Of a stretch of DNA of 64,000 bases, positions 3,838 to 37,678 are shown piece by piece. Every line of letters begins with the position of its first letter. Within the stretch, counting starts at the first letter, position 1. The notes under the pieces were generated by a model. That model worked only from the letters and a program-made list of their open reading frames with translations. It ran no database searches and was not told the DNA's origin. The stretch is from Maylandia zebra (lineage: Eukaryota; Chordata; Actinopteri; Cichliformes; Cichlidae). The stretch covers positions 68,500,251 through 68,564,250 of the forward strand of contig NC_135173.1 in NCBI RefSeq assembly GCF_041146795.1, in the 5' to 3' direction. The position numbers and the translations under genes were made by a program.

Positions 3838-4030
3838 TCAGTTCAAGTCAACTTTATTCATATAGTACAAACCCACAGCAGCGGCCTCAAACACATTTTA
3901 TTGTGCAGTAAAGATCTTACAATAAAACAGAAACCCAACAATCAGACAGCGCCCTGTGAGCAAGCACTTGGTGACAGAAGGAAGGAAAAACTCCCTTTAA
4001 ACAGGAAGAAGCTTCAGGCAGAACCAGGTA
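3838..4030 (-). mobile_element. L2-type LINE 3' end fragment
   Basis: The stretch contains the hallmark order seen in the longer copy at 40231-41120: a CAACTTTATTCATATAG-like start, a CTACAATAA-like block, GGAAGGAAAAACTCCCTTT, then AACAGGAAGAA and GCAGAACCAGG. It is the 3' untranslated end of an L2-like element in minus orientation, lying downstream of the FAM3 stop codon. Confidence 0.6.
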
Positions 4031-7600: not shown

Positions 7601-9178
7601 TTGGCTTCTCTCAAAATTTGACGTTGAGGCAGAAACGAGCTTCCGTGCAGTGGGAGGAACATCAGTATGGAGGAAGACTCAGACAAACAGGAAGAAGATA
7701 AAGGCTGTATCCCAATCCAGGGTCTGCAGCCTTAAAGGCCGCATTTTAAGGCCGATTACGTCACCGCGACGCCACGAAGGCTGTCCCAATTCAAAGGCTG
7801 CTCGAAATGCGGCCCTCAAATGAGTCCTTCATTTCCCTGAATTTTAAGGATGTGGCGGTGTAGACTTCATGGCCCAATATATCCCAGAACATGTCTGTGA
7901 AGGTTCTCAGTCATCCAGGTCATCGTAGTCAAAGGAGCTTGCAAAGAAAAGCGTCTGGACTTCTTTAAGTTGCTTGAAGACGTTTCACCTCTCATCCGAG
8001 AAGCTTCTTCAGTTCTAGGGTTAAATGGTGGAGAGTCCCCCCACAGAGGGACAAAAGGACCCCTGATGATCCTCTAATCGCCTGAGCCAAGGTGTGAAAC
8101 TGGGTGTGGGTCCCAATCAGCCAGAGTTTCGGGTGTGTTCATTGTGAAACCTGGCCCCACCTTATCATGTGAATTCCTGAGGTCAGATGGCCCAGGATGT
8201 GAGTGGGCGTTAAGGCGTCTGGGAAGGATCTCAAAACTGGATTATAGATGGCAGACAGTTGGTGTCGTAAACCCCGCCTCTTTTCAAAGATGGTCGCTCA
8301 CAGTGGACATAGATGCTTCTTTCACTCCTCTTTCAAACCATCTGTCCTCTCTGTCCAACATGTGAACATTGGCATCCTCGAAAGAGTGACCTTTGACCTT
8401 TAGATGGACAGTCCTTTTGTCCCTCTGTGGGGGGTTACTCCCACTAGGTTTATATCTGGGACTCTCCACCATTTGACCTTAGAACTGAAGAAGCTTCTCG
8501 GATGAGAGGTGAAACGTCTTCAAGCAACTTAAAGAAGTCCAGACGCTTTTCTTTCCAAGCTCCTTTGACAATATCCCAGAATGCATAGCGGGGCAGTGGG
8601 TGTGGATAATTTTGCCGAAAAAAAACGGTGGATGAGGGGCGGCCGAAGAGTAAACTTTAAGTACTGAATATGACGTCACTTATTTATGTGGAAATTTTTA
8701 CTAACGAAGAACATTAAAACATGACTGTTGGCCACATGTCAGCAAAGTCATGTGACATTAGTGACGTTTGTACTAACTTGGTTTTAAAGCCTTTACTTTA
8801 AAATATACGCCGTTCAGTAGCGGAGCTTAATCTCACAGAGAATGATCAAAGCTCATGTAGCAAGGAACAAATGAACAAAAGATTTTCTCCTTCATCTCTG
8901 TCAAACACAGCTGTATGACACCATGGTTGCTAGGCAACCTGGGCAGCGCAACGGAGGCTAGACCGCCCATTTCACAAGCCTCGCACTTCCGGCCTTAGCG
9001 GTCTTTGAGTACGCGGCCCTGGTGGACCGTTAAGGCCGCAGACCCTGAATTGGGACACAGCCAAAGAGTGAAGGACGAAGCAAATCAACGAGGAGCGTCA
9101 GAAGCGCGCGCGCGCACAGACACGCGCGCAGGTGAAGACAGAAAGAAACTTACTTCCCCGGCGGGCCGCGCGCTTCAT
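4639..9178 (-). CDS. FAM3-family secreted protein (FAM3C/ILEI-like), 9 exons, 232 aa
   Basis: FAM3 proteins are small secreted or signal-anchored factors with a beta-beta-alpha globular fold. FAM3C is also called ILEI. Coding exons, in translation order: 9178-9154, 6745-6665, 6502-6431, 6338-6230, 6140-6082, 5790-5740, 5667-5583, 5285-5159, 4728-4639. All phases agree. Residues 9-28 form a hydrophobic signal anchor after a basic MKRAARRG start. The core shows [34 protein letters not shown] and NKYDGWPE. Cysteines at 63, 69, 91 and 226 have exactly the spacing I know for human FAM3C C58, C64, C86 and C221, so two disulfides are expected. Which FAM3 paralogue it is cannot be settled here. Intron 1 holds a 1.4-kb transposon, and a hAT element starts 63 bp upstream of the start codon. 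Confidence 0.9.
7703..9062. mobile_element. Terminal-inverted-repeat DNA transposon in FAM3 intron 1
   Basis: The ends are inverse copies of each other: GGCTGTATCCCAATCCAGGG on the left matches the inverse of the right end, read as GGCTGTGTCCCAATTCAGGG. A possible 3-bp duplication AAA flanks it, which would suit a PIF/Harbinger-type element, but this is too short to be decisive. A fold-back element is inserted in it at 7890-8570. Its right end lies only about 90 bp from FAM3 exon 1. Confidence 0.65.
7890..8570. mobile_element. Fold-back element with 111-bp inverted arms
   Basis: Arms at 7928-8038 and 8459-8569 are near-perfect inverse complements. They share CACCTCTCATCCGAGAAGC and its complement and differ at only a few positions. 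The inverted similarity continues inward through the CCCCCCACAGAGGGACAAAA block. The element is flanked by the 11-bp direct repeat ATATCCCAGAA (7879-7889 and 8571-8581). One diverged arm of the same family occurs at 53608-53735. No coding sequence was seen. Confidence 0.7.
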
Positions 9179-16400: not shown

Positions 16401-16631
16401 ACATAAGTGGTCCGCAGGTGCGCATTCGCTGTCAAAATAAAAAACACGCACAAGGGTTAGGGTTAAATTTAAAAACTGTACTTTTGAGTTAAAATATATA
16501 TTTATAATTTTAATAAATGACAAATTAAAAATGCATGAACATTTTTTTGTATCGAAAAAATATCGAACCGTGACACCAAAGTATCGAACCGAACCGTGAA
16601 TTTTGTGTATCGTTGCACCCCTAGTGTTTAG

Positions 16632-17605
16632 GTGTAGACAGGTGTGCTGATCAGAGCTCAGCAGCAACAAGGAAATCTGCCGAGGTCTACGAATTCAGCT
16701 ACCCTGCACCCGAGTACAGGATGTTCAGGGCTGCACCTCCCAGTTTGTGTAATTAGTGGAACCATTTGTCCTGGAAATGTTTAGTAAAGTCAGTCGTTGC
16801 CCCCCCTGCCCCCCCCTCCATCACTGTGAAGAACTCGTAAAATCCCTCTGGAGCTTTTATTTTGAAATCCGGCTGCTCAGTGCAGTTTGAGTGGCATCAG
16901 TCACAAATTGGTGTTTTGTTTTAATTAAAGGCTCCTCTGGACACTTCAAGCACACAAGCATCATCTTACACGAGTGTGATCACAGTGAGGGATTCCCGGG
17001 AACAGCCCTCCTGCTTCAGTTTTCACTATTCCCGATGAACCCTGCAGAACCCTTTCAGTTCCTCAAAGAGAAGAAAGAAAACACTCTGTGGCACTGAGGA
17101 TGGAAACGAGTTTAACTTGATGAACTTTCATTAAACACAGAAACAAAAGTCCTGCCTGACTCTGTGCAGCGCTCCTGGTAACCAGTCAGCATCCCAGGAG
17201 GGCGCTTCCAGAACGTCCAATGAAAACCAAACCGACCGGCCTCCACAGTGAGGTCGTGTTCTCAGGCAGCGCCGGACCGTTTTCATCACTGCTGCCGAGA
17301 TCCGAGTGTCCGCCGCGCTGGGTCTCCTCCTCCTCCCCCGGCTGAACAGCTCAGAGATCCAAAGGCGGCCCGGCAGCCGCCTGAGAACACGACGTCAGCC
17401 ACACCTGACTCAGGTGATGTTTCTGATTATTATGGACCTGCACGCAGAGCCGTCTGATCCCAGGACCGCCCACTCAGCGAGCTCAGTCCTTCACAGAAGT
17501 CCTTCTGTGGATCCAGAGTCTGGACCCACAGACAAGCAGGCGGTTTGCCAGCCCGCCACGAGGTCTGTACAGGGATAGTCCACGCCCCCACACCGCACCG
17601 GCGGT
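16632..17605 (-). other. 3' flank of the four-module SANT gene
   Basis: Sequence downstream of the stop at 17606. A minus-strand AATAAA occurs near 16860 and could serve as a poly(A) signal about 750 bp past the stop. No further gene was recognised. Confidence 0.3.
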
Positions 17606-20600
17606 CTACATGAGGGCGTTGAGGTGCCCCGAGTGTCCCACAGAGTTCAGCATCAGCGCCCTCTGGTCCAGCACCTCCCTGTCCCGGCCCAGCGCCGCCC
17701 TCTCCTGCTCCACCATGGCTCTGTCCCGCTCCACTGCCGCCCGCTCCCGGTCCAGCCACAGCCTCTCCGCCTGCACCGCCGCCCTCTCTCTCTCCAGCGC
17801 TGCTCTGTCTCGCTCCACCATCTCTCTCTCTCGCTCCAGCGCCGCCCTCTCCCTCTCCACCATCTCCCACTCACTCTCCAGCCCCCCCAGCGGCCCGTCG
17901 CATGTCTCTGAGCTCCGCTGGTTCTGCTCCGCGCCGTCTCCGAATGCATCCGGCGCATAGTCTGAGGAAGATGGGCGGGAGGGCGGTGGGGCAGGGGGAG
18001 GTGCGGGGGTGGCGCGGGGCCTGAGTCTCGGGGCGGGGTCTGGGTGCTGATCGTCGTCCTGAGTGACGGGGGCCAGGAGGGGGGCGCTGCTCGCCAGCCG
18101 GCCCTCCATGGCTTCGTTCATAAGGTGAAACCACGGCCAGGAGGAGGCGCCGTCTGCCACGGTCTCCATCCCGACAGGAGGGTACTTCAGGTCCTGAGGA
18201 GAGCAGAGGATTTTAGAAACACGCAGCCACGAGCAGCTTTACCGAGGCGGGGAGTTAGTGACGGCCTACCTTGTACCGCCTCTTCAGATTGTCCCACTTC
18301 TTCGCCATCTGGTAGGTGGAGACCTTCCCCTGCAGACCGAGCTCCTTCAGGATGGCTCTGACAGGAAGTGAGGACACAGAGTCAGGAACGCCTCGCTGCT
18401 CCGACATTCACCCGCACGGGAGGCATACTTACTTCCAGGCGGCTTTGGCGGCGTTCCTCCTCCCGGTGAACAACGCCTCGTTAGCGGCTCGAAGTTTAAT
18501 CATCTTCCTCGTGTCCTGGTCGGTCACTGCGACGCACACAGGTCGACAGACAAGTCATCAGTGATTTTATGCTGCAGTTTCAAAGTTTTCAGGGTTTTTT
18601 GTGCTGCATAAGTTTAATTTCAGGTATTTTAAATTCGTTTAAAAGATTTTTATGTTCTTGTACTTTAATTCATTCAGTTTGAATAAATATCTTTTATTGA
18701 TATCTGTATTTTGATAACAATTTTTTATTCATTATTTATTTTCAAACATTTGCATAGATTTCATGTGTTTACATTTTAAACCACATTTTTATTAAATGTT
18801 TTTTCAGTATCTGTATTTTAACACACTCATTGTTATTATGATAATATATATACTTTCCTTATTTCTGTGTGTAAACATTTTGTCTTTATTTTAATCAGTT
18901 ATTTTTAAAGTTTTTATTTTACTTTGTAATTTATTCAATTTGAATTTTGTTACATTTTTCTTTGCAAAGCTTTTCAGCGTTTTTTCCTCACAGGATAAAT
19001 TTCAGGTCTTATTATTTAGTCTTAACAGATGTTTGACTTCCTGTCTGATGTTGTCTTTGTTTGTATTCATTTGGTTTTTGCCGTTTTGTATTTTCTTAAA
19101 CGTGAAAATTTTTCTTAAACAACGTGAGCGAAGCCTCGAGGAGGTTTGAGGGCAGCGATCGTCACCGGGCCGTGACCACGAAGAAATCCTCTCACTTTTA
19201 TACGTCGGGTCGGAGGGTGTCGAACACTCCTCTCCGCTGGCGTCGATGTAGGTGACGTTCCCGTCGGACTCCGCGTTGTCTCCGCCCACCATGCTCTCCA
19301 GCTCCGACACGCTGCTCCTCTCCGCCATCAAACAGTCTCTGTCGGGAGGCGGGGACGAGCCGAACACGCCGTCCTCCTCGTTGGTCCAGACGGGCGTCAC
19401 TCGGGGAGCTTTGCCCGTCAGACGGCCTTCCAGAGCGTCGCTCATCAGCTGGAACCAGGGCCACGAGGCCGGGTTGGTCTGACCCTCCATCCCCCGAGGA
19501 GGAAACTTCAGGTCCTGCAGACGCAGCAAACTCACGTTTCAGTGAACGCTTGAGGCGAGCAGCAGCTCTCTGCGGCGCTCTGCCGATTACTATCAGAGAG
19601 CTGCAGGACACTCAGGCGTCTAACTTTATTTAAACAGGTCCGACTGGACAAAGCAGGTTATAGGTTCACATGCAGGGCACACGTTACTGCGAGTCACCTG
19701 AGAGTCATCGAACACACCAACCACATTTCCTTCAGTTACTATAACACCTTGAGGTCAGTTTAAAACACACCCCTCCGCCTGCACACGACTAACGTATCGA
19801 CGGCGCCTCAGTCTCGAGCGATCCACTCACAGACTTGCGTGTCCACACCGCCCACCTGCAGGACTGACACTACAGTAATTATCTCAGGACTGTTGTCACT
19901 GCCGATCAGGAAAAACTGGGTTTGTTGCACGTGTGGAGAAACAGCTCAGATCAAAAGGAATGTTTTTCTCGCTGGTGTAAATGTAAACTAGCAGAACATC
20001 GACACTGAAGCTGACTTCCTGGTTTTAACGCCTGAAGCTCGTAAGCGTCTCACACACACAGACATTCACAGTGGAGACGTTTATCCGGCCCACAGTGCAA
20101 CAGGACAGCGTGCCAACGATGAGTCTCTGTAAAACCTGACATGTTAGCGTCTGTGCACCAAGTATTTGTAGGTAAAAATATAACAACACTTATTTAAATA
20201 CAGGCAAATTAGTTATGAGGACAACACCGCCTCAGCTGAGGGCTAAAAAGGATGCGGCGGTAACACGGGGTCACATGACCTGAGGCACGCTGCTCAAACT
20301 GCTGCAGGGATCTCACCTTGAATTTGGTCTTCAGGTTGTCCCACTTCTTGGCAACCTGGTCAGGTGTTATCTTCCCTGTCAGACCCATCTCCTTCACTAT
20401 TCCCCTGCGCGCGCACACACACACACACACTTTAACAGGACCCCGACACACACAGAAACGAGCGCAGTGTTTTCAGCAGACGCTCGAACGCTCGCTCACC
20501 TCCACGCCGGTTTGGCGGTGTTCCTCCTGCCGGTGAACAGAGACTCGTTAGCAGCTCGCAGCTCGATCAGTCGCCTCGTGTCGTCTTCGCTCACTGTGAA

Positions 20601-23600
20601 AAGAGGCGAATGCAAACGTTACTTTGAGGCGTTTCCTGCACGGCGTGCATGAATACGATCGGGTGACATCGTTTGTTTCGTTTAAAAACTTCCTACGTCC
20701 TGATTCCAAACGACTCCAGAACTGAAGCTCCGAGCACAACGAACTTTTAGACGAACCCTCGAACCAAGAGAAACCGGACCTATCACATGACCTCCTGGGC
20801 AGCTGATTGGCTGTGCTTTAATAGTTTTCACTTGCACATGTTCCCTTCCTCCCTGATGCCTACATTCCCCACAATCCACCCCGGCTGCAGCGCAGGACTA
20901 AGCTGTGCCCCTCAGTCTCACTCTGCTGTCTGAGCTCCGAGCTGATCGATTATCCTTACGTTTGTAGGTGAACTCGCCCATCCGGTGCAGCTCGCCCAGA
21001 GCCGCCGATCCGTTCTTGTCCTCGTTATCAACCAGCAGGTCCATCTCAGACTCCGTCAGAAACTCGGCCATCCCGCCTCGGCTCCGGCGGGCTCGCTTCT
21101 TGGGTGTCGGGGACAGCGACTCGCAGTCCTCGTCTTCATCCTCCACGATGGGAGTGAGGATGGGCGCGGCGCCAGCGAACCGTCCCTCCATGGCGTCGTT
21201 CATTCTGTAGAACCAGGGCCAGGAGCTGGGGTTGGTCTCCACGCCTCGAGCGGGAAACTTCAGCTCCTGGAGAAATGACAGGACGTCAACACTGCCACCA
21301 TCTGCAATTACCCACGATTCACAGGGACGCCGCCGATTCGGCTTTTCTAACTATTGATTATTAATTTATCTAATTTAACTGAAAGACGTGCAGCATTGTG
21401 GAGCTGCAAAGAACACATGAGTGGCCGTTATATAGTTGCAGTTCCTCTAACGTCCACTTGAGGCACCAAAACTGACATTAACAAAGAATGGCTATCGCCC
21501 CGCCCACTGCGGGTTACGATCTGGATGGCGACGCCCCTTCGAGTCGTGGCGCTGGAGTGAGAGGACGCACCTTGTATCTCCTCTTCAGGTTGTCCCACTT
21601 CTTGGCCAGCTGGTCTGTGGTCAGTTTGCCCTGAAGGCCGAGCTCATAGAGAATCGCTCTGAGAAAATCAACAAATAAAGTTATTTGAATTGGAGCCGAG
21701 CCCCTTCAGACCTGACCAACAATGAACATGAAGGTTTGGAACTGTTTGTCCTCGGCAGCGTTGGAGTTATTTTAGGTTTTTAAGTCTTTAAAAAGATGAA
21801 TTTCTCAAAACGCTGCACGAGTCCTGATTAATTTACTCAGGTTGGTTATTAAGTTGATGAGCCTGCAGCAGAGCGCCGTGAGGAAGTGATCTGGAAACAT
21901 CAAAATGCATGTACTGGTCAATGCTGCCCCCTGCTGGTGTATGTTTGACTTCACATTTGGACAGGAGGGATTACAAAAGGTACCTTTAAGTCTTTGATAA
22001 TGATCAGAAAAATAAACATTATTAAATGTCTGAGACGCTCTGCAAATAAAAACAAGAAATATTTATGAAACCCTAATCTACAAAAAGTATATAAAAAAGT
22101 CCAAAAACTTATTTCTTATCAATATATTCATTTTATTTTTGGTAGTTTTCTGTAAAAAAAAAAAAAAAAAAGTCTAAATGTGCTTCAGGCACCAAAACAT
22201 TTAATACTCGATGATATCCTGATTTAACCTTTAGATCAGGCACACTTTAGGTCGCGGGCCAAACACGATAAACATTTACTGAACCCTACAACAATGTTTT
22301 TTAAACATAAATATGAATAAAAACAGACAGGAATATTATTCCAGATTAAATAAACTTAAAAAAAGAAACTTTAAATATTTTGCTCTTCATAAAAATATAT
22401 CCTGTCAAAATGATGCAAGTTAGAAATAAGAACATGCTGCCAAAACCTCAGGAAAAGTAAATGAGAGCAAACACAAGGTTGGAGCCGCATGTAGACGAGC
22501 TGGGCGCTGCTGCAGGAGTGGAGCTAATAAACTGTGCGGGCCATTCAGTGTCGTACTTTCCCTGAGTGCATCATTACACTGCAGCTGCATCTGAATCTGC
22601 ACAGGTGCAGCTCAGCAAAGTGCGCTGACTTGGTTCAACATTACTGCAACAGAGAAAGTGAGGCAGGCTGCACTGGTGCATTTGTGACAGCTTCACTGCA
22701 TCATACATGTTCATGAACTGACAGGTTTCCTTGCTGAGCTCAAAAACTCTGTTGAGAACTTTTATCCCGACTCAGCCAGCGGAGCTCTGCATGAAGGAAT
22801 GTCGGCAAACTCTGAATCTATTTCCCACATAAAAGACTGAAACTGACGGTGATTTAAACTTTTAGCTCAGATCAAATGTACGGTCTGCGTCGCGGTGACC
22901 ATTACATGCTCCATTTTTAGGACTTTACCACACAGCCTTTCCTGGTGTGTGATGCAGTGATGTGCTGTTAACTCACCGGTACATTTCTCCTGCATCTTTA
23001 CTCGCATCCTGCGGACTAGTCCGCTTTTTCCACCGCACAGCACCGGCGCTCCATCTGTTGTAAGTCCAACAAGTTTGTCCCAGGACAGTTTCACGTCGTT
23101 ACACTTTGACATGCGTTTTTAAAAACGCCTTTTCCCGTCGTTGTCCCGTGCATCGATTTAATGTCCAATATTTCCTCTCCACGGATGAAGCTGGTCAGCT
23201 GTGCAGTGTCCATCATGTCTGTACTTTCATCCACAGCCGAGCATGCAGTGAAGTTTTTGCTTCTTTCACACAACTGTGTTCTTAAATCAGTGACCATCTC
23301 ACAAACCGATCAGCAATCGTATTTCTGCTCAGGCTCACATTTGCTAAACTCTGCGTTTTGTCTGGACACAAGACGTCCACAGCTTCATCCTGCAGCTCTT
23401 CAGAGCGGTACCGGGCTGCTTTGGCTCCTCTGCTACGATAAAACTTGCTTTCACAACAGCTTCACTTTGTGGTTTTGCTCTGGTGACGAACGTCTGCTGA
23501 AACGTCAGATTCTTCTTCAGCTCTTCTACTTCCTGTAGTTTCTGCGTTTCGGTTTTTCAGCTTATCCTGACGTTTTGTCTCGTAGTGCCGTCTTAAATTA

Positions 23601-26600
23601 AATTCCTTCATTACAGCCACATTAGCTCCACTAATAAGACGCACGGTTTACCAGCATGTCTGTAAACATATATTCAGCCTCCCACCGGCGCTGAAAGGCT
23701 CTGCTTTCAGAGTCAACTTGTCTCTGCACCATCGTGAGAAGTAGCTTGACGCGGGAATGTTCCCAGTTAGCCTAGCGCTCAGCAAGGAGGCTGCAGCGCT
23801 GCATCATGGGATCCGTAGTTTGTATATTACTAGCGCCTCATATCGCCGGGACATGCATAACAATAATAATACATCTATATAAAATGATCCCGCGGGCCGG
23901 ATGTGGCCTTGACTTTGACACATGTGCTTTAGAAGAAAACGTTCGATTCATTAGGACCACATCATGTAACGGAGATCAGTGGAGCCTTTGTTTACTGTGA
24001 CCAGGCCACAGCTGGACGGGTGGGAAACCTGCTGTAGAGGCTTGAACTTCAAACACGCCCAAAACATGTTTGAAAACATATTTTCATGACATTAAACCGT
24101 GCGACTATCCCAGGAAGTTGATTCCGTTTCTCACACTGAAAAAAAACACTCCGAACAGGTGATTTCGTCACCCGGGTGACTGAGCGCGCATCAACACAAT
24201 ATGACAAATTATTTCTTTAAATAAGATCCACGTCAATAACAAATCTGAGATGACGGAAATAAAAAGACAATAACAAAATCAAACCAGAAACCGGTTCAGA
24301 CCTGGTTCAGGTGCGTTCGACTCACCTCCAGGCCGGCTTGGCTGAATGTTTCCTGCCAGTGAAGAGCGCCTCGTTGGCTGCTCGAAGTTTGATCATCCTC
24401 TCGGTTTCTTGTTCGCTCACTGTCAACAAGAGGTGGGGGGTGGGGTGGAGCCATTAAACACTCGATCCTGCGTGAGGTGTGATTATACCTGATGATGTCA
24501 GCCAGGTGCGTCTGCCTACTTTTATACGAGCACTCGGTCATCCTCCTCCAGCCCATCGGGATGCCCTCAGGGGGCGGAGCCTCCGTGTGAACCCCCCCAT
24601 CATCCGCTGCTGTTTCGGCTGCCACCGTGTCCTCCATCTCCGTCTTGATGAGGAACTCCAGAATGTCGGTGTTCTCCTGGTTCTGATTGGGCTGGCAGTT
24701 GCCACGGTGACCGGCGTTGCCAGCGGTCTCTGGGCTCAGCACCAGGTTGCTGTTGTAGAGGCGACCCTGCATGGCTTCATCCATGATGTGGAACCACGGC
24801 CACGACTCCACAACGCCCCCCATGTGGTCCTGGCCCTGGTATGGCTGCTTCAGGTCCTGGAAAGAGGAGAACAGTGACCCCTGCAGGCTGAAACAGGGAC
24901 GTACAGTAAGAGCTGCCTGCAGGCGAGCGTCAGCAGAAAAACTGTTCTGCAAAGTGCGTCACAGAAAGAAACGTGCCAAATAAAAAGAATTAAACATGAA
25001 GACATTTAAAGATCTTTTTCCTCCAGTCGACTCCCTGAAAGATTCACCAAGAAGCAGACAGATGTGCTCATCGGAAAAATCTCATTAAAAACAAACAAAC
25101 AAACAAACACCGTCTCTCCTCATGTCTGAAAAAGTAACTGTCCCCAAAACCTGATAACTGGTTGTTCCACCCTCGCCCAGACTGATTTAAGTCCAGACTC
25201 GTGGTGTTTGCTGGTTGAGATCTTCAGCCTGCTTCACTTTGTCAAACAGCTTCTATTTAAAGGATTTCTGAGTCACCACTAGGGATGGGTACCGGTATCC
25301 GGTGCCATTACGGCACCGGTTCTGACATTAACTGTACTAACCAGACCGAAAAGCAGCGCACATTTCGGTGCTTTGTTTTCTTGAGATGTCACACACTTTG
25401 GATTCTAGCCAATCATTTTACGTTTCCAAGCGTAGTAGGCGGGTCCAGGTACGTACGTTCTTTTAGAGCAGAGCTACAGATTAAAAATGCCCAAGGCGAA
25501 GCGGTCAAAGTCTGGCTGTACTTCACAGCAAAAGATGCAAACTCAGCAGCAACAAGTGCTTTAAGCTGATACTGTGATACTGTCAAAGGAGGTAACACCA
25601 AGAATCCGATGAAACACCTGGCGACGCATAGCGTTTTTTTAAAAGCTGAGAAATGCGCCGTATTTGATAGCTTGCTGCGAGACCTCACACCGAGCACATC
25701 TAGTGCGGGTGTGGTGCCTGTTATCTGACCCGGAGCAACATCCCCCAAAAACCCGAAGAGGAGAGTCCTGGCCCCTAGCCCTGCCAGTGTAGCAGAAATG
25801 ATGAGGATGATGATGCAGCAGCAGCCGTTCTTCTCTGCGTGAGTAGCTTAATGTTGTTCGTGTGTAATTTACGTTGAGTAGGCTAACCACGTTATTACAT
25901 TAATGCATGTAAGGTGAACTAGCAAACATCATCATAGCTACATGCGGCTGTCTTCTTGTTTGATGGCAGATACTCCCTTCACCCTGGCCAAAAAGGCTAA
26001 AATGACCAAAGAAAAAGTGGAAAACAGCTAAACATGAGAGGTTTTGGACAAAGTGTGTGTTTTTCCATTCTTTAATCACCGGTTCGAGCACCGGTTTGGT
26101 ACTGGTATTGGATAAAACCTAAACGATACACATCCCTAGTCAGCAGGTCTGACAGGGATCAGGCCTGGGAGTGGCAGTGAAGGGAGTCTTTGCAAAAACA
26201 TGAGGATGATCAGTTAACTTGTGAGTTCACGGGGGGGGGGGGGGTAATGACTTTCACAGACATGAGGAGAAGAACAGCAGCTACATGGCATCTCATGATC
26301 TCATGTACCTTATATTTTGTCCGCAGGTTGTCCCATTTCTTGGCGATCTGGTCTGCCGTCAGCTTCCCTTCCAGACCGAGGCCTTTCAGGATGGTGCTGA
26401 GGAGACAGGAAGCAGGACATGAGCACTCACTGAGGCCGTGGGAACTTTATGAGGGTGCTGCGACCGGTCCTGGCCGCTGGCACCCGGATCTCTCAGGTTA
26501 AACTGCTTCTGCTGCTCCTCGGTCACCTGTCGCTTGCTCAGGTGAGTCCAGGAGCAGGCGGGCTCATACCTCCAGGCTATCTTTGCAGAGTTCCTCTTCC

Positions 26601-26801
26601 CTGTGAACAGGGCCTCGTTGGACGCCCTGAACTCGATCAGCCTTTTCACATCCTCTTCGGTCACTGCAGGCAGGCAGCGGAGGTCAAAGGTCAGCAGCTC
26701 AAACACATGGAGCAGCACTTTTAAGGGTACAGGTACTTACTCTTATAGGAGTTCTCTGGGAAGTGAGGCAGCGGGTGGGGGGCCGGCTCCATGGTGATCA
26801 T
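17606..26801 (-). CDS. Protein with four tandem Myb/SANT-like modules and C-terminal coiled coil, 13 exons, 779 aa
   Basis: Likely a nuclear DNA-binding or chromatin protein; I do not recognise a named orthologue. Exons in order: 26801-26741; module 1 26663-26570, 26396-26309, 24856-24520; module 2 24419-24326, 21658-21571, 21266-20960; module 3 20593-20500, 20404-20317, 19514-19196; module 4 18526-18433, 18357-18270, 18193-17606. The frame is open throughout. Each module has an A exon of 94 bp, a B exon of 88 bp and a C exon of variable length, in identical phases. A+B encode the trihelix (RAANE.LFTGRR, then LGL.GK.T.DQ.AKKWDNLK.KYK). C begins with a D/E-L-K and then SWPWF..M..AM.GR. The domains lie at about residues 21-82, 194-254, 357-417 and 524-584. 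Residues about 690-765 form an Arg/Glu/Ala coiled coil. The start could be 26801 or the stronger ATG at 26792; an in-frame stop lies 15 bp above. Confidence 0.85.
22237..23926 (-). mobile_element. hAT-Charlie-like element in intron of the SANT gene
   Basis: The left end CAGGCACACTTTAGGTCGCGG and the right end (inverse CACATGTGTCAAAGTCAAGG) bound the element. The octamers CTTTAGAT (22229-22236) and CTTTAGAA (23927-23934) match at seven of eight positions. It contains the decayed transposase at 22867-23660 on the minus strand, the same strand as the host gene. It sits in the intron between the A and B exons of module 2. Confidence 0.75.
22867..23660 (-). pseudogene. Decayed hAT transposase (GTF2IRD2/ZBED-like)
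   Basis: Three minus-strand stretches line up with the hAT transposases related to the C-terminal part of GTF2IRD2. NVAVMKEFNLRRHYETKRQD is the zinc-finger end. AVDESTDMMDTAQL carries the first catalytic aspartate motif. LVGLTTDGAPVLCGGKSGLV is followed by a C-I-T-H-Q-E-like motif and VLKMEHVM. Frameshifts separate the pieces and the C-terminal half is missing, so it is not functional. Confidence 0.8.
25280..26138. mobile_element. Non-autonomous hAT element in intron of the SANT gene
   Basis: The left end TAGGGATGGGTACCGGTA and the right end (inverse TAGGGATGTGTATCG) are imperfect inverted repeats with ACCGGT-rich subterminal sequence. The octamers GTCACCAC (25272-25279) and GTCAGCAG (26139-26146) agree at six of eight positions. 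No transposase was found. It lies between exons B and C of module 1. Confidence 0.65.
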
Positions 26802-27300
26802 GAGAGGACACAGCTAGGAGGGAAGGAAGGAAGGAAGGAAGGAAAGAGGGAGGGAGGAGGAGGAGATGTGCTGTGTTCAGGCCCGATGCTAACTACATCC
26901 GCTAGCGCATCCTGTTGCTCCTACAACGGGGCTCCTCCGTCCATCACGGGGGCCGGGCCGTGTCTGTGGGCGGGGGCCGCCGTCTCCTCCCGGTGAACCG
27001 TTAGCGGCCAGAGGCTGCAAGCTAACTCAGACGGCTAAAGCTAAACAACAAACAGACCGCGGAGCCGGGCTTCCCGCCGCACAGAGAGACACCGGCTCCT
27101 GTTAGCTCGGCTCGGCCCCGACCTCCGCCTCCTCTCGGTATCTTATGTCACCTCCTCCGACGGGCGGAAAAGCGTGAATTAAAGCGTCCCCGTTAACGGA
27201 GCTAGCCTGCATCCCGACGCTCTGCTCCGAGAGAAGGGTACGCTCGATATCTCCACCCGGGCCTGGCCGCTATCACCTGACCTCCGGCTCGAGAGGGCGG
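26802..27300 (-). promoter_or_regulatory. GC-rich 5' region and probable promoter of the SANT gene
   Basis: Immediately upstream of the start codon the sequence is GC- and CpG-rich (for example CCGGGCTTCCCGCC and CTCGAGAGGGCGG), unlike the AT-rich neighbourhood. It begins after a (GGAA)n run at about 26820-26845. This looks like a CpG-island promoter with the 5' untranslated region. The transcription start site is not visible. Confidence 0.5.
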
Positions 27301-27337
27301 GGTCAACACAAACACAACCAGCTCGTTTTTTCCCCGT

Positions 27338-27338
<1 letters not shown>

Positions 27339-27372
<34 letters not shown>
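27339..27372. repeat. (ATT)n microsatellite
   Basis: About eleven ATT units. Confidence 0.95.
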
Positions 27373-27486
27373 GCTTTTTTTACATTAAGTAAATATGGGG
27401 ATTTATAACATATATATGGATATAAAACAGGACTGCCTGAAATTGTAATAACTAACTTTCGCACTTTAGTGGTAAAAGCTTTTAGG

Positions 27487-27703
27487 CAGGAAGGGGTTCA
27501 ACTCCAGGCCTCGAGGGCGTCCTTTAGATGTGTCCTTGATCCAACACAGCTGATTTAAATGGCTAAATGACCTCCACAACATGTCCTGTAGTTCTCCAGA
27601 GGCCTGGTAATGAACTCATCATTTAATTCAGGTGTGCTGATCCAGGGTGAGATCTAAAACTTGCAGGACACCGGCCCTCGAGGCCTGGAGTTGGACACCA
27701 CTG
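27487..27703. mobile_element. hAT MITE
   Basis: The left end CAGGAAGGGGTTCAACTCC and the right end (inverse CAGTGGTGTCCAACTCC) continue into shared AGGCCTCGAGGGC on both sides. No clean target duplication is visible. Confidence 0.6.
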
Positions 27704-28129
27704 CTTTTTTTTTGCCTGTCCCGTTTGGTTCTTTAGCTGTCATTGATGAGTTGATGACTGAAGGCCAACAAAGATATCCAACAGATTTACTTTACCAAGT
27801 GGATCATCACGGCTTTGTCGTATTGATCCATTTGATCAACCTTTGTTGTTATTATTTATTTTATTTAATTTTCAGTAGTTACAAATGGGACAGACATGGC
27901 TGGGGAATAGGAAAGGGAGAAAGAAAGATGAAGGAACAGAAAAACAGAGGGGAAGAGGGACAGTGAGAAAGGACACTTAAAAAGAAAATATATCCCAGAT
28001 CACCTGTTGAGAGAAAAAAAGACCCCTGCTTTTACGTATTTACCACATATTTGTCTAAATTAGGGAACTCTGTCACTGAACTAACACAGCCAACTCCCTC
28101 AGCGTGTTTGTAGTCTTGGCTCATATTGC
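27704..28129. other. Intergenic sequence without recognised gene
   Basis: No conserved exon was seen. Confidence 0.3.
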
Positions 28130-28851: not shown

Positions 28852-31800
28852 TCATTGAGTATACTGTGACCAGACCAACTGTTTGTAGAGGAATTTAAAT
28901 CTATGAATATTTTTGCATTGTTTCAATTGTAAACTCAGACTGTCCCAGATTTTCACACCACATACAGACACACAAAAGCCTTTACGGGTTGTTCGAGTTC
29001 TGGGTAATTTGAATTCTCCAAAGCCTCTCACATTATAAACCTTTTCTCGAATTTCAAATCTAGTTTGTAAATTTGCCGGTAAAAGTTTAGTAAAAGCTTT
29101 ATACAAAATTATGGATGTATTGTAATTAACCAGATCCTGGAATTTAAGTAACTTTGCCTGAAGAAAGAGTTTGTGAGTATGATCTAGATAACCAGCCTTG
29201 TGAATAATACGCAGTGCTCGTTTCTGTACTGTGACTCATGGATTAGTTGTATTTTTATTTCCCCACACTTCCACACAATATGGAAGATATGGAAGAACCA
29301 GGGTACAGTACAGAGTACGAAGTGCATCTTTATCAAGGAATTGTTTCACTTTGTTCAAAACTGCGAGGCTTCTGGAAATTTTGGTTTTTATGTGTCTGAC
29401 GTGGGGTTTCCATGAAATTTTGTTATCAATTACGACTCCCAAAAATTTGTTTTCACTCACATTATCAATTGGTACACCTTCAATGATAATTGGTAATTCT
29501 ATATTATATTTTAAATTACCAAAAAACATTGCTTTAGTTTTATTTATATTTAATGATAATTTATTTATGTCCATCCATTTTTTTATTAATTTTAGCTCCC
29601 TGTTTACAGTCATTACAAGATCAGTATAATCATCGCTACTGAAAAATATGTTGGTGTCATCTGCGAACAGTATGAGTTTAAGTACTTGAGAAACATCAAA
29701 AATATCATTTATGTATACATTGAAAAGTTTTGGTCCCAACACTGACCCTCGGGGAACACCACATGTAATACCAAGTTTCTCTGAATGGTAATGCCCTATG
29801 CTAACATATTGTTCCCGACCCGTTAGGTAACTTTTTAACCAGTTACCAGCTTTCCCTCGAATACCATATCTTTCCAATTTATCCAGTAAAATTGAGTGAT
29901 TGATTGTGTCAAAGGCCTTTTTGAGATCAACAAAAATACCAACTGCATATTTATTTTTATCCAGTGTATCAGTAATTTCTTCTACTGCCTCAATTATCGC
30001 CATTGAAGTGGTTCTTTGCGTTCTGAAACCATACTGACCAACATTTATTATTTGATGTTTTTCAAGGAATTTTTCTAATCTTGAATTAAAAAGTTTTTCT
30101 AGAATTTTTGAGAATTGAGGCAGTAGAGAAATAGGCCTATAACTGGTAAAACTGTGTTTGTCATTACTTTTATATAGTGGTATTACTTTCGCAATTTTCA
30201 TTTTTTTTGGAAAACAACCGGACTGAAATGATAAATTACAGATATATGTTAAGGGACTAGCAATATTCAGAATAACCTGTTTAACTACAGACATATTTAT
30301 GTCATGATAATCCATTGAAGACTTACTTTTACATTTTAATGTGATATTTATTACTTCTTGCTCATTTGTAGCTGAGAGGAACAGTGAAAAGGGATTTGAT
30401 TTTATATTACTGATATTTTCATTTTTATGACACGGGATGTCCGCTGCTAGTTCAGGGCCAACATTTATGAAGAATTTATTGAACCCATCGACAATATTAC
30501 TCATGTTGTGATTTTCACCATTTGCATCAGTAAAATATTCAGGATATGATGTTCCAGAAGATCCTTGTTTAATTAAGTTGTTTAACACATCCCAAGTTCC
30601 TTTTATATTGTTTTTATTTTCATATAATCTTCTTCTATAATAAAGTTGTTTGCTCGTTCTTATAATATCAGTCAATTTATTTCTATATGCTTTATATCTT
30701 TGTTCCACTTCTTTTGTTTTTACTTTGATGAACTGTTTATAGAGATTGTTTTTCTTTTTGCAAGCATTAATAATTCCTTTTGTGAGCCAAGGACTTTTTA
30801 TCTTTTTTTTCTTTGTCATGTGTTCGTTTACAGGACAATGTTTATTGTACCACATAGTAAAAATATCTAGAAAATTATCATAAGCCTTGTCCACATCTGA
30901 CTCTTCATACACCGAACTCCAATCTTGTTGTGCTAAATCGAAATTGAAGGCATGAATTGCTTCTTCATTTATTGTTCGCTTTGCTATCATGATCTTGGTA
31001 TCTATTTTTTTTAAATCACAGTCACACAAAGTAAAAACTGGTAAGTGGTCAGTTATATCACAGACAAGCAGACCACTATTAATTTGGAAATCCATGACAT
31101 TAGTAAAAATGTTGTCAATAATAGTGGCGCTATGTGATGTTATTCTGCTTGGCTTTGTTATTGTTGGATATAGTGATAAGCTGTACATTGTGTCAGTAAA
31201 GTCATCAATGGCTTTTAACCTTGTTGGGTTTAGCAAATCAATGTTAAAATCACCACAGATAAATAGTAATTTTTGGTTCACCGAAGCAAACGTTTTTTCT
31301 ATCCATTCATTAAAAGTGTCAATACTTGAACTGGGTGTCCGATATATGCAACTTATTATAACATTTCTCTTTTTTTCATTCATAATCTCAATAGTCAAAC
31401 ATTCCAAAATTCCATCAATAGCCATAGACATAGTTGTTACAACATTATATTTTATAGAGTTATGAACATATATAGCAACCCCGCCGCCCGCCTTATTTAA
31501 TCTATTCATGTATTTTAAATCATATCCATTCAAACAAAAATCTATTCCTTTATCGACATTGAACCAAGTTTCAGTGATGGCTATAACACTAAAGGGGCGA
31601 GAAAATTGTTGCAAATAGTCCTTAATGAAATCAAAATTAGAGTACATACTTCTGCTGTTAAAGTGAATTAATGAGAGCTTCCCGTCTAGGTTAATTTCTT
31701 TTTCATATTGTTCCTGAGTGAAATAATTACAATTTTTAACAAAAGAAGAGAGAAAGTTACTTTCAGAATCTATTTCTGGATCTATTATATTATGCTCCTT

Positions 31801-31857
31801 ATATTCACAATCTAGATCAATTACTTTCTGTTGAAGAACTAATTTCAACGTGTCCAT
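28852..31857 (-). pseudogene. LINE ORF2: endonuclease plus reverse transcriptase, one in-frame stop
   Basis: The protein opens MDTLKLVLQQ. An AP-endonuclease-like domain follows in about residues 60-290 (IHFNSRSMYSN, ITETWFN, ICGDFNIDLLN, TDHLPV). The reverse transcriptase spans about residues 530-800 (YRPISLLPQFSKILEK, FVDLKKAFDTINH, GVPRGSVLGP, and the active-site box FADDTN). After residue 873 a TGA at 29236-29238 interrupts the frame. The same frame then continues for about 127 codons with the usual C-terminal motif (QKRALRIIHKAGY) to a stop at 28852. The TGA could be a CGA-to-TGA change. Everything else is open, so this is a recently active copy or one mutation from activity. Confidence 0.85.
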
Positions 31858-31888
31858 GTCATTTCCTGGTGTAATTGATACATTGGTG

Positions 31889-32560
31889 TCAGTTATACTT
31901 GTCCAGATCCTCCATGTTCCTCACTATCAGTACTTTTGCCTCTTCTGGTGTCCCGTTTAGCTTAATGAAAATCTTACAGTTTGTTACCCATGTATGTTGT
32001 ATTTTACCGTTCTTCTTCAGTTGCCTTGCCTTCCTCGCGATGTCTGCGTTTTTTCGTGTCAGATGCTCATTAATGAAAACGTCCGTGCCTTTCAGTTTGC
32101 GTCCTTGTTTCAGCAGTGCGACCTTGTTCTTCCGATTGACAAATCTCATAATGATGGCCGGCAGTCTGTCACTCCTCCTGGGCAGTGAGTGACATGCTTC
32201 TATGTGCTCCAGGTCCATCTCTATCCCCTTGCTTTGGAGGAAGGACGCCACCTGTTGCTCTACCGAGCGGGTCTCCTCGTCGCTGGGCTCCCCGACGTTC
32301 CCGGCCACCGCGCGCGCATATGAGCGCGGCTTGATTTTAATACCGCTGATGACCACGTCGTTCGTACAGGTGTACTGCTCCAGCTCATCCACCCGCCGCT
32401 CGAGATCCATGATCCGTCTGTCCTTCTCGGCATTTTGGAGGCGTAGCTGTTTTACCTCCTCCAGAAGCCCCAGAAGCAGCTCCTGCTGCGCCCTGACTGC
32501 GGCCACGTCTCCGCACAGCGCTCCGAGGGAGGTTTTAATGTCCTCAACCTCCTCTGGTGT
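31889..32560 (-). CDS. LINE ORF1 protein, N-terminally truncated
   Basis: An open frame of more than 205 codons ends 31 bp before ORF2. It starts with a heptad-rich coiled coil (LLLGLLEEVKQLRLQNAEKD then RRVDELEQYT). A compact basic domain follows (NDVVISGIKI, LPAIIMRFVNRKNKVALLKQ, GTDVFINEHLTRKN) that resembles the RRM-like nucleic-acid-binding domain of L1/L2-type ORF1 proteins. There is no ATG; the frame runs into the truncation point near 32560. Confidence 0.7.
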   Translation of the reverse strand, partial: TPEEVEDIKTSLGALCGDVAAVRAQQELLLGLLEEVKQLRLQNAEKDRRIMDLERRVDELEQYTCTNDVVISGIKIKPRSYARAVAGNVGEPSDEETRSVEQQVASFLQSKGIEMDLEHIEACHSLPRRSDRLPAIIMRFVNRKNKVALLKQGRKLKGTDVFINEHLTRKNADIARKARQLKKNGKIQHTWVTNCKIFIKLNGTPEEAKVLIVRNMEDLDKYN

Positions 32561-34773: not shown

Positions 34774-37678
34774 ATGTTGGCCAGGAAGGGCCTCCTGCCG
34801 GACGGCTTCCTGCTGACCCGGCTGGCGGAGGACCAGAACCAGCCAAACCGCAGCCGTTCGAGGTCTCAGAGAGCCCGCTTCATCACCAAGACCGGATCCT
34901 GTAACGTGGCTCACAAGAACATCAGGGAACAGGTAGAGCAGCGAGTGTTTGGTTATGATGCGGTTCAGCATGCAATGAAAGCTTCAGATGTGCAGGACTT
35001 TTCTGTTTGCTGCTCTGTGGCAGAATGTAGATAAAAAGCTACAGCGGATGGAGGGCGGAGCGTCTGGGAGCTCCACTGCGTTTTTATCTGTTAAACATCC
35101 TTTTACTTTGATAAGCCGGAATCCAGAATAAGTTAAATGTTGTTACGGGCGATGGGAAGAAAAGGTCCGGGGGTAGAACGAGGAAAAAGAGAGGACGGTT
35201 TGCTGACGGGAGGCTTTGTGGTGTGGTTCAGGGTCGCTTCCTGCAGGACGTTTTCACCACCATGGTGGACCTGAAGTGGCAGCACTCCCTCCTCATCTTC
35301 ACCTCTGCCTTCCTCTGCTCCTGGATGCTCTTCGCTATGATCTGGTGGCTCCTCGCCTTCGCTCACGGAGACCTGGAGCCCCGCGACCCCAACGGCGAGC
35401 CGGGCCCAGTCCCCTGCGTCACAGCCATCCACTCCTTCACCTCTGCCTTCCTCTTCTCCATTGAAGTCCAGGTGAGAGTTGCTTCCTGCTGATGCGGGTG
35501 TAGACTTCTGTCTTGTGGTAATCCTGGATGTTTCCCGTCTAGGTGACCATCGGTTTTGGTGGCAGGATGGTGACGGAGGAGTGTCCGCTGGCCATCACCG
35601 TGTTGATCATTCAGAACATTTTGGGGCTGATCATCAACGCCGTGATGCTCGGCTGCGTGTTCATGAAGACGGCGCAGGCCAACCGGCGAGCAGAAACACT
35701 CATCTTCTCCAAAAACGCCGTCATCGCTCCTCGAAATGGCCGCCCCACTTTCATGTTCAGAGTGGGAGATCTGAGGAAGAGCATGATCATCTCAGCCACC
35801 GTCCAGCTGCAGGTGACCTACAACTTCACCTGAGCTCCACATCACGCATACAAAACAAAACAGCCCCAGTAATGCAAACCAATCCTGAAGATACAGACAC
35901 AAAACTGAAATCTTCTCTTCAGGTGATCCGGCGGACGGTGACGTCAGAAGGCGAGGTGATCCCCGTGTGCCAGCTGGACATCCAGGTGGAGAACCCCCTC
36001 AGGAGTAACGGCATCTTCCTGGTGTCTCCCCTGATCATCAGCCACACCATGGAGCGAGGGAGTCCTCTCTACGAGCTGTCTGCCCAGTCACTGGCCTCCG
36101 AGGACCTGGAGATCATCGTCATCCTGGAAGGTGAGATCTTTACCTTCCTTTGTATCATCCACCCACTGTTATCATCTTCACTGCCAACACAGAGCAGCTA
36201 CCTGAACATTGCTCCAACAGAGGTCCATCATCTTGTTAATAACTTTACCTCCTGTCACTGCGTACGACTCTGGATACTGTAGCTCTGGTGAAAAATAGAC
36301 TTAAATCAGAAGTACCTGACTCCGTGGTATAATTCTCAAACACGTAGCGTAAAGCAGACGACTCGTTAGTTTCAGTCAGGTTTCAGAGCTCATCACAGCA
36401 CAGAAACAGCTTTAGTGAAGGTTACAAATGATCTTCTTACGGCCTCTGACAGTGGACTCATCTCTGTGCTTGTCCTGCTAGACCTCAGTGCAGCGTTCGA
36501 TACTGTCGACCATAATATCCTATTAGAGCGATTAGAACATGCTGTAGGTATTACAGGTACTGTGCTGCAGTGGTTTGTATCATATCTATCTAATAGACTC
36601 CAGTTTGTGCATGTAAATGGAGAGTCCTCTTCACACACTGAGGTTAATTATGGAGTTCCACAGGGTTCAGTGCTAGGACCAATTCTGTTTACATTATACA
36701 TGCTTCCCTTAGGCAGCATCATTAGAAGACATAGTATACATTTACACTGCTATGCAGATGACACCCAGCTCTATCTGTCCATGAAGCCAGATAACACACA
36801 CCAATGAGTTAAACTGCAGGAATGTCTTAAAGACATAAAGACCTGGATGGCCGCTAACTTTCTGCTTCTTAATTCAGATCAAACTGAGGTTATTGTACTC
36901 GGCCCTGAAAAGCTTAGAAATATGGTATCTAAGCAGATTCTTACTCTGGATGGCATTACCTTGGCCTCCAGTAACACTGTGAGGAACCTTGGAGTCATGT
37001 TTGACCAGGACATGTCCTTCAATGCACATATTAAACAAATATGTAAGACTGCGTTCTTCCATTTGTGCAACATCTCTAAAGTTAGAAATATCCTGTTGTT
37101 ATGATTTGAATTGAACTTTATAAAGAGTCCTGCAGGCGCCTGCAGCTGTAAAGCGACACTGAATGAATAAAACTTCTGGACTGCATTACAAACAGGTTTT
37201 TGACCTTTAACCTTATATCTCCATGCACCCTCTATTTCTTCTTTAAGGTGTGGTGGAGACGACGGGGATCACCATGCAGGCGCGGACCTCCTATATACCC
37301 GAGGAGATTCTGTGGGGGAGGCGCTTCGTCTCCATCATCACGGAGGAGGACAGCAGGTACTGTGTCGACTACTCCAAGTTCGGAAACACGGTTCCCGTGC
37401 GGATGTCGTCTCTCAGCGCCAAGGAGCTCAACCAAACCAGAGGAGTCCAGGAAGGAGGGTCCGACGTCCAGCTGCAGGGATGGGGGCTGGTTCGAGCCGG
37501 CAGAGGGGGGTTCCGCAGAGGAGGGCGGGCCTACGACAGCTCCACGCCTCAGCCCTGGTACGCCCAGTCAGATAAAGCAGAGAAGGAGGTGGAGCAGAAA
37601 GGACAGAAAAAGACAGTCCAGTTGGAGGTGATCGGACGGCAGATCGAAGAGGACGCGCTCGGAGAGCTAAGCGACTGA
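34774..37678 (+). CDS. Kir6-type inward-rectifier potassium channel (KATP pore subunit), 5 coding exons, 435 aa
   Basis: Kir6 subunits form the tetrameric pore of ATP-sensitive K+ channels with SUR/ABCC partners in plasma membrane. Coding exons: 34774-34932, 35232-35471, 35543-35812, 35923-36130, 37248-37678; phases agree. Residues 1-53 hold MLARKG and AHKNIREQ. M1 is at about 73-98, the selectivity filter TIGFG at 135-139, and M2 at about 148-175 with the pore-lining asparagine at 165. R51, K190 and R206 sit where Kir6.2 has its nucleotide-site residues R50, K185 and R201. [24 protein letters not shown] and VDYSKFGNT are Kir6 hallmarks. The last 80 residues are Gly/Arg/Glu-rich and unlike Kir6.1 or Kir6.2, and no RKR retention motif is visible. 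It may be the fish Kir6.3 type (kcnj11-like); I cannot separate paralogues. Intron 4 contains an L2 fragment. Confidence 0.92.
36388..37110 (+). mobile_element. L2-type LINE reverse-transcriptase fragment in Kir6 intron 4
   Basis: The plus-strand reading contains [37 protein letters not shown], the active-site box CYADDTQLY, and then [14 protein letters not shown] and [15 protein letters not shown] stop at 36805 breaks the frame and both ends are missing. It is a dead copy on the same strand as the host gene. Confidence 0.85.

Follow-up and report, generated by a model that had tools for sequence, protein, structure and literature searches.

Harbinger transposons that carry a Myb-like gene have been reported in many teleosts (PMC9179366). 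In zebrafish Harbinger3, the subterminal regions of the element contain a 9-base-pair (bp) motif that the Myb-like protein binds, and the transposase requires this protein to enter the nucleus (PMC9710019). NAIF1 and HARBI1 are a domesticated Harbinger pair (PMC8616336). Here we analyze a 13-exon gene on the minus strand of contig NC_135173.1 of the cichlid Maylandia zebra. The window is the stretch of 64,000 nucleotides from 68,500,251 to 68,564,250 of this contig (C7:68500251-68564250 in our numbering). We propose that this gene is a domesticated PIF/Harbinger Myb-like gene that was quadruplicated internally, and that it encodes a multivalent nuclear DNA-binding protein. We consider this proposal as a whole to be probable, and sequence comparison makes the Harbinger Myb-like origin of the gene well supported. 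NAIF1 is likewise a host gene from a Harbinger DNA-binding protein (PMC8616336, PMC9710019).

Three aspects of this picture are already known: the fold, the fact that Harbinger proteins can be domesticated, and the existence of proteins with several domains of the trihelix or MADF type. Harbinger domestications in the literature we surveyed are not described as internally multiplied. Among the literature matches listed, which do not extend to subscription literature, we found no description of a Harbinger Myb-like gene that was domesticated and multiplied fourfold with its exon plan intact, and no report of four trihelix domains in one vertebrate protein. NAIF1 is a single-domain protein of another Pfam family (Myb_DNA-bind_5); we set it apart on this general background and not by its sequence.

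The fish Harbinger Myb-like protein (PMC9179366) shares with the window protein the PF13837 fold, a charged tail, and, in copies in this genome, exons of 94 and 88 bp and phases of 1/2/0. Unlike the window gene, its gene has a single module and many copies, and it is paired with a transposase in two of the copies described below (L050 and L052). Drosophila HMR (PMC8412352), like the window protein, has four Myb/SANT-like (MADF) domains and a C-terminal interaction domain, which is BESS in HMR and a predicted heptad helix here. HMR belongs to another subfamily, and one of its MADF domains is predicted to be acidic, whereas the modules of the window protein are basic throughout. In flies, HMR has a role in the repression of repeats (PMC3961192). 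We regard HMR as the nearest working analogue, and it is not a relative by the tests we made. The fly protein Mzfp1 (PMC11229372) also has tandem MADF domains, but only two of them, along with a zinc-finger cluster that specifies the DNA. Plant trihelix factors of the GT-2 type (PMC3292583) have the same DNA-binding fold; they differ in having two trihelix domains and a plant history, and the profile match of the window modules to GT-1 is distant.

We rebuilt the gene exon by exon, from 26801 to 17606 of the window, and obtained 13 exons whose joined frame stays open for 779 codons. Each of the 12 introns begins with GT and ends with AG. Exons A, B, and C of every module start in phases 1, 2, and 0, so the A-B-C unit is a symmetric phase-1 cassette. 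Exon 1 and exons C1-C3 close with (S/T)YK ahead of the following A exon. The features are as follows.

26800..27499, no strand: CpG-rich stretch over the 5' end of the gene (CpG observed/expected 0.73-1.05 in three overlapping 300-bp windows)
26741..26801, minus strand: exon 1, with the start codon at 26801 or 26792; 20 residues, the last three being SYK; phase-1 donor
26570..26663, minus strand: exon A1, 94 bp, opening part of trihelix module 1
26309..26396, minus strand: exon B1, 88 bp, carries AKKWDNL
24520..24856, minus strand: exon C1, 337 bp, codes for the WPWF segment and for an acidic linker of net charge -8
24326..24419, minus strand: exon A2, 94 bp
21571..21658, minus strand: exon B2, 88 bp
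20960..21266, minus strand: exon C2, 307 bp, linker of net charge -7 with a basic KKRARR cluster and an acidic EFLTESEMDLLVDNED stretch
20500..20593, minus strand: exon A3, 94 bp
20317..20404, minus strand: exon B3, 88 bp
19196..19514, minus strand: exon C3, 319 bp, codes for the WPWF segment and for an acidic linker of net charge -10
18433..18526, minus strand: exon A4, 94 bp
18270..18357, minus strand: exon B4, 88 bp
17606..18193, minus strand: exon C4, 588 bp, codes for the WPWF segment, a linker rich in proline, and the C-terminal tail, and holds the stop
17667..17883, minus strand: tandem repeat of a 21-bp unit inside C4, coding for about 10 heptads of the [ED]R[ED]RAAL type

A preliminary description of this DNA had claimed an internal duplication of a three-exon Myb/SANT cassette within one gene, with A exons of 94 bp, B exons of 88 bp, longer C exons, equal phases, and AKKWDNL and WPWF in all four modules. 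The coordinates, lengths, and phases are exact in our model, both motifs occur four times in the protein (one each per module), and the duplication is supported by the gene model, the alignment, and the tree. The claimed length of 779 amino acids is what the frame gives from the first ATG (26801), which has an in-frame stop directly upstream. However, the second ATG (26792) has, by eye, a superior Kozak context, so the protein may have 776 amino acids. The CpG-rich stretch is probably the promoter, and the KKRARR cluster is, as judged by eye, a possible nuclear signal.

The splice sites, the frame, and the homology of the modules support a single gene. We also considered that the modules might form an array that is decaying or has no function, or that they might belong to several genes in a chain. 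The model is built from genomic sequence, and the introns hold what appear by eye to be remains of mobile elements. (For instance, the stretch at 25281-26140 in the intron between B1 and C1 looks like a mobile element, with CTAGGGATG-type ends in inverted orientation; its open reading frame (ORF) at 25413-25847 has no match in Pfam. The intron between A2 and B2 has minus-strand ORFs at 22867-23650 that we take to resemble a broken hAT/ZBED-type transposase; the two pieces that we searched have no Pfam match at E ≤ 0.01.) But decay or separation seems highly unlikely given the intact ends of all the introns, 779 open codons, a CpG-rich 5' end, and differences between the modules that lie mostly at third codon positions.

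A profile search of the 779-amino-acid protein, which the preliminary description had proposed as a check, places PF13837 (Myb_DNA-bind_4) in four stretches (Pfam, whole protein; E = 1.9e-40, 137.6 bits versus a cut-off of 27). The MADF profile also matches (E = 2.4e-21), and PF13837 scores higher. BESS is not among the 10 Pfam families listed for the protein at E ≤ 1. When a profile of the four modules is compared to solved structures, the top match is the plant trihelix factor GT-1 (structure 2ebi, E = 4.8e-5). In a PDB search with a single module, bacterial Rok came first (E = 0.0071) and GT-1 third (E = 0.095); we judged the Rok match to be due to chance because the four-module profile ranks GT-1 first. 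Trihelix domains of plant proteins carry three tryptophans in their helix cores, which are not part of the Pfam definition. In all four modules, the tryptophan of helix 1 is replaced by methionine or leucine, while the AW and KKW positions are kept, and the assignment to the family by score stands. Scans of viral and genome contig collections for the module matched its patterns and gave no confirmed relative. Within the window, there are no further module-like copies at E < 0.1 (the best is at E = 0.21). A MADF-like fragment at 1465-1803 (plus strand) is under the Pfam cut-off (19 versus 22 bits).

We then compared the modules to the genome (962 megabases in 63 contigs). With module 4 as the query, all 43 candidates were scored, and 15 matched at E ≤ 1e-3: all 12 exons of the four modules in the window gene and three sites elsewhere. 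By this search, the window gene is single-copy, and only contig C7 carries these exons. The three other sites, on contigs C16, C17, and C13, are copies of a Myb-like gene (L050, L051, and L052), and around each of them the A, B, and C pieces stand in order. In L050 and L052, an ORF of 306 amino acids adjoins the Myb-like gene on the opposite strand. The ORF of L050 matches the transposase family DDE_Tnp_4 (E = 2.1e-30), and that of L052 is nearly identical to it, as judged by eye alone. L050 is enclosed by perfect 36-bp inverted repeats (3864-3899 and 8555-8590, with 4655 bases between the arms), and L052 has a pair of 45-base arms, 91% complementary, at places that match the repeats of L050. 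Despite the perfect repeats, no target-site duplication is seen by eye around L050. An active PIF/Harbinger element has a DDE transposase gene within inverted repeats, and the window gene is not of this form.

These elements have the exon plan of the window gene, which bears out the earlier suggestion of a transposon origin. The two lengths, 94 bp for A and 88 bp for B, recur in both L050 and L052, in phases 1/2/0 and with consensus splice sites; in L051, the A and B lengths hold and the splice sites have decayed. For a broader view, we used 23 element loci, namely L050-L052 and 20 others that were chosen by hand, and thus not at random, from matches to the L050 Myb-like protein. AG and GT stand at the exact positions for a 94-bp A exon in 12 of the 23 loci, at those for an 88-bp B exon in 12 of 23, and at both in 6; the remaining loci are truncated, shifted, or unaligned at these positions. 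For the L050 Myb-like protein, 150 of 226 candidates in the genome were scored, which gave at least 147 exon-level matches at E ≤ 0.1; these are pieces and not copies. Four of these are the B exons of the window gene, with a best E of 1e-5.

The modules are 57–71% identical to each other in protein sequence, with 40 of 93 columns invariant over all four, and chance is excluded as the source of this likeness. In our main tree, the four modules form one clade (support 97/95). This tree has 12 element rows: seven with A, B, and C exons, four with B and C, and one (L070) that was joined from three pieces. The 11 of 23 loci left out are L051 and mostly incomplete or decayed copies. A split with support of 100/98 sets the modules and L070 apart from the remaining 11 element rows, and module 1 is the first branch among the modules (87/90). 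L070 is an element relic; a fragment of a transposase (E = 2.8e-13) lies at a distance of about 0.6 kb from the C exon of L070. In a tree with three element copies alone, support for the module clade is 100/100.

Another reading is that four independent Harbinger insertions became exons of this gene in turn. In its favor, each module has the element's exon plan, and Harbinger-related matches are numerous. But the clade of the four modules in both trees already contradicts this reading. Furthermore, the modules have in common the lost helix-1 tryptophan and the (S/T)YK junction, all of them lie in one orientation, and their linkers have motifs in common: past WPWF, a linker segment of the form A-P-x-[LV]-[TA]-P is conserved among modules 2, 3, and 4 and looser in module 1. 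So we give four separate insertions almost no credence. One domestication, followed by internal duplication, is the simplest account of these sequences.

The modules also appear to be old. In a self-comparison of 16500-28000 (E ≤ 1e-3), matches between modules consist of the exons and at most about 20 adjoining bases at the splice sites. For the six pairs of modules, synonymous divergence (dS, by Nei-Gojobori) is 0.99–2.19 and nonsynonymous divergence (dN) is 0.18–0.31. Because the matches are confined to exons and dS is well above dN, we conclude that the sequences reflect old duplications whose modules have been retained under constraint.

We propose the following history. The Myb-like (trihelix) gene of a Harbinger element would already have had the A(94)-B(88)-C plan with phases 1/2/0. 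One copy of the element would have turned into a host gene, and the A-B-C cassette would then have been duplicated inside that gene, up to four in a row, which is feasible because the cassette is symmetric in phase 1. The element's exon plan is thus the likely reason that the domain could multiply. In the last copy of the module, a charged helical tail would have been retained, possibly in a longer form.

Several observations weigh against our proposal. The modules share only 40–47 of 90–93 residues (43–51%) with the three best-preserved element proteins. L051 lacks a transposase ORF within the 9.9 kb that we examined. A search of the window with the L050 transposase shows no recognizable relic (best E = 0.073), and the L050 inverted repeat has 0 matches there with up to 3 mismatches allowed; a window without scars is as expected after long decay, and equally if the insertion never happened. 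The comparison of dN to dS between modules spans the entire history of these sequences, including any time spent in the element. The tail encoded by C4 is only weakly like that of L070 and is not like that of L052: we tried the heptads as the element's own tail, and shuffled sequences scored as well in 6 of 1000 cases against L070 (which is weak) and in 630 of 1000 against L052. When 10 distant PF13837 domains from the same genome are added to the tree, support for the module clade is 92/90, and the long-branched row L026 joins it at 86/95; apart from L026, the modules are far from these domains. (Our genome search for PF13837 gave 35 matches, 30 of them with loci; near-copies, wrong-strand reads, and further domains were omitted from the tree. 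The window gene, with a domain that is divided among exons, is not one of the 35.) Some MADF domains of HMR and Mzfp1 serve for protein contacts instead of DNA binding (PMC8412352, PMC11229372). And the tree is unrooted, so it would also accommodate capture of a host gene by the element.

Under such a capture, an old vertebrate Myb/SANT gene with internal repeats came first, and a transposon took its Myb-like gene from a host gene of this kind. The unrooted tree and the missing insertion scar would both allow this, but we think it unlikely. The family of elements has many and diverse members (identity in its longer matches is about 58 to 98%), the row nearest to the modules is the relic L070, and Harbinger elements that carry a Myb-like gene have been reported in many teleosts (PMC9179366). 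Furthermore, the A exon starts with GG in 14 of the 17 element loci with an AG acceptor. This GG would complete the codon of the helix-1 tryptophan (T|GG); we infer the codon, as the upstream exon of the elements is unlocated. All four modules lack this tryptophan, and we take their methionine or leucine to be a shared derived change. A GG that is kept in most elements and lost in the modules fits the element's state being the older one.

Our proposal for how the protein works draws on the Harbinger family, with the 9-bp motif bound by the zebrafish Harbinger3 protein (PMC9710019), and on the anatomy of the window protein. The isoelectric points (pI) of the modules are 8.96, 9.99, 9.89, and 9.99, and those of the linkers between them are 4.41, 4.54, and 4.05. 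Basic modules on acidic linkers make it plausible that the four modules recognize an extended or repeated DNA site, as the preliminary description had supposed; most likely, the product is a nuclear DNA-binding protein whose modules would bind a short motif that occurs in clusters. The end of C4 has about ten ERERAAL-type heptads, encoded by the 21-bp repeat, which we read as a putative long charged helix or coiled coil. This helix may drive oligomerisation, and the protein would then read DNA sequence in a multivalent manner and recruit partners or bridge them. One possible partner is a Harbinger-derived transposase protein, on the pattern of NAIF1 and HARBI1.

Alternatively, the modules might be mainly platforms for protein-protein interactions that do not read DNA. 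The third MADF domain of HMR, which is predicted to be negatively charged, is tied to contacts with chromatin proteins (PMC8412352), and the specificity of Mzfp1 resides in its zinc fingers (PMC11229372). This seems inconsistent with the basic charge of every module, since the basic class has been read as DNA-binding (PMC5982830), and Pfam gives no DNA-binding family of another kind above its cut-off in the protein. So we view a role purely in protein contacts as doubtful, if somewhat less so than capture by the element.

If the modules do read DNA, then the fourfold reader might still recognize the subterminal motifs of resident Harbinger elements and, through avidity and oligomerisation, outcompete or silence them. 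This is a speculative extension, by analogy, and we do not expect it to be correct. If it is, then a transposon's target-reading protein has been turned against its source, which can be likened to the repression of repeats by HMR in flies, and the multiplication of the modules is the product of an arms race, comparable to arrays of zinc fingers. Because the donor superfamily is still present in the same genome, the DNA motif that the gene would have inherited lends itself to direct tests, as does a putative role against transposons. Under our proposal, the gene would be a clear example of how a mobile element can supply a DNA-binding module that is ready-made and can be shuffled.

The preliminary description recognized no named vertebrate protein with this architecture. 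Nothing that we found in Pfam, solved structures, the contig collections, this genome, or the literature matches listed contradicts this, but the architecture is less isolated than that implies, given the four MADF domains of HMR (PMC8412352) and other trihelix arrays in this genome. L031 (G000:C17:30661500-30671400) has seven PF13837-type domains on one strand, with the canonical tryptophan, and several copies are seemingly split over two exons. L032 (G000:C17:30950500-30956500) has four PF13837 domains, L033 (G000:C22:8568500-8573000) has three, and L034 (G000:C3:2597000-2601000) is a near-copy of L033 with two clear domains and one partial one. As in the window gene, several trihelix domains lie on one strand. 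These arrays differ in belonging to another subfamily (with the canonical tryptophan and without AKKWDNL or WPWF) and in having, apparently, one or two exons per domain. We counted them as arrays of domains, each of which is not necessarily a single gene.

Elsewhere in the window, ARAGORN found no transfer RNA. On the minus strand, 29236-31920 is an 894-amino-acid ORF that resembles, by eye, the endonuclease/reverse transcriptase of a non-LTR (long terminal repeat) retrotransposon, and 42256-42651 has a CD59-like ORF whose match is under the Pfam cut-off (28.6 versus 33.9 bits, E = 1.2e-6). An open frame of 735 amino acids at 54181-56385 (minus strand) has a C17orf113-type zinc finger (E = 1.2e-8) and is possibly another transposon-derived gene. 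A PR/SET exon lies at 59718-60134 (minus strand); its weak Pfam match, to PRDM2, is under the cut-off, and we rejected PRDM9 as the identity of this gene since its closest solved relative is PRDM11 (E = 2.9e-32). On the plus strand, 35115-37675 contains a KCNJ11-like (Kir6.2) inward rectifier gene, and an ORF that by eye is like a reverse transcriptase (36370-36804) lies between pieces of it.

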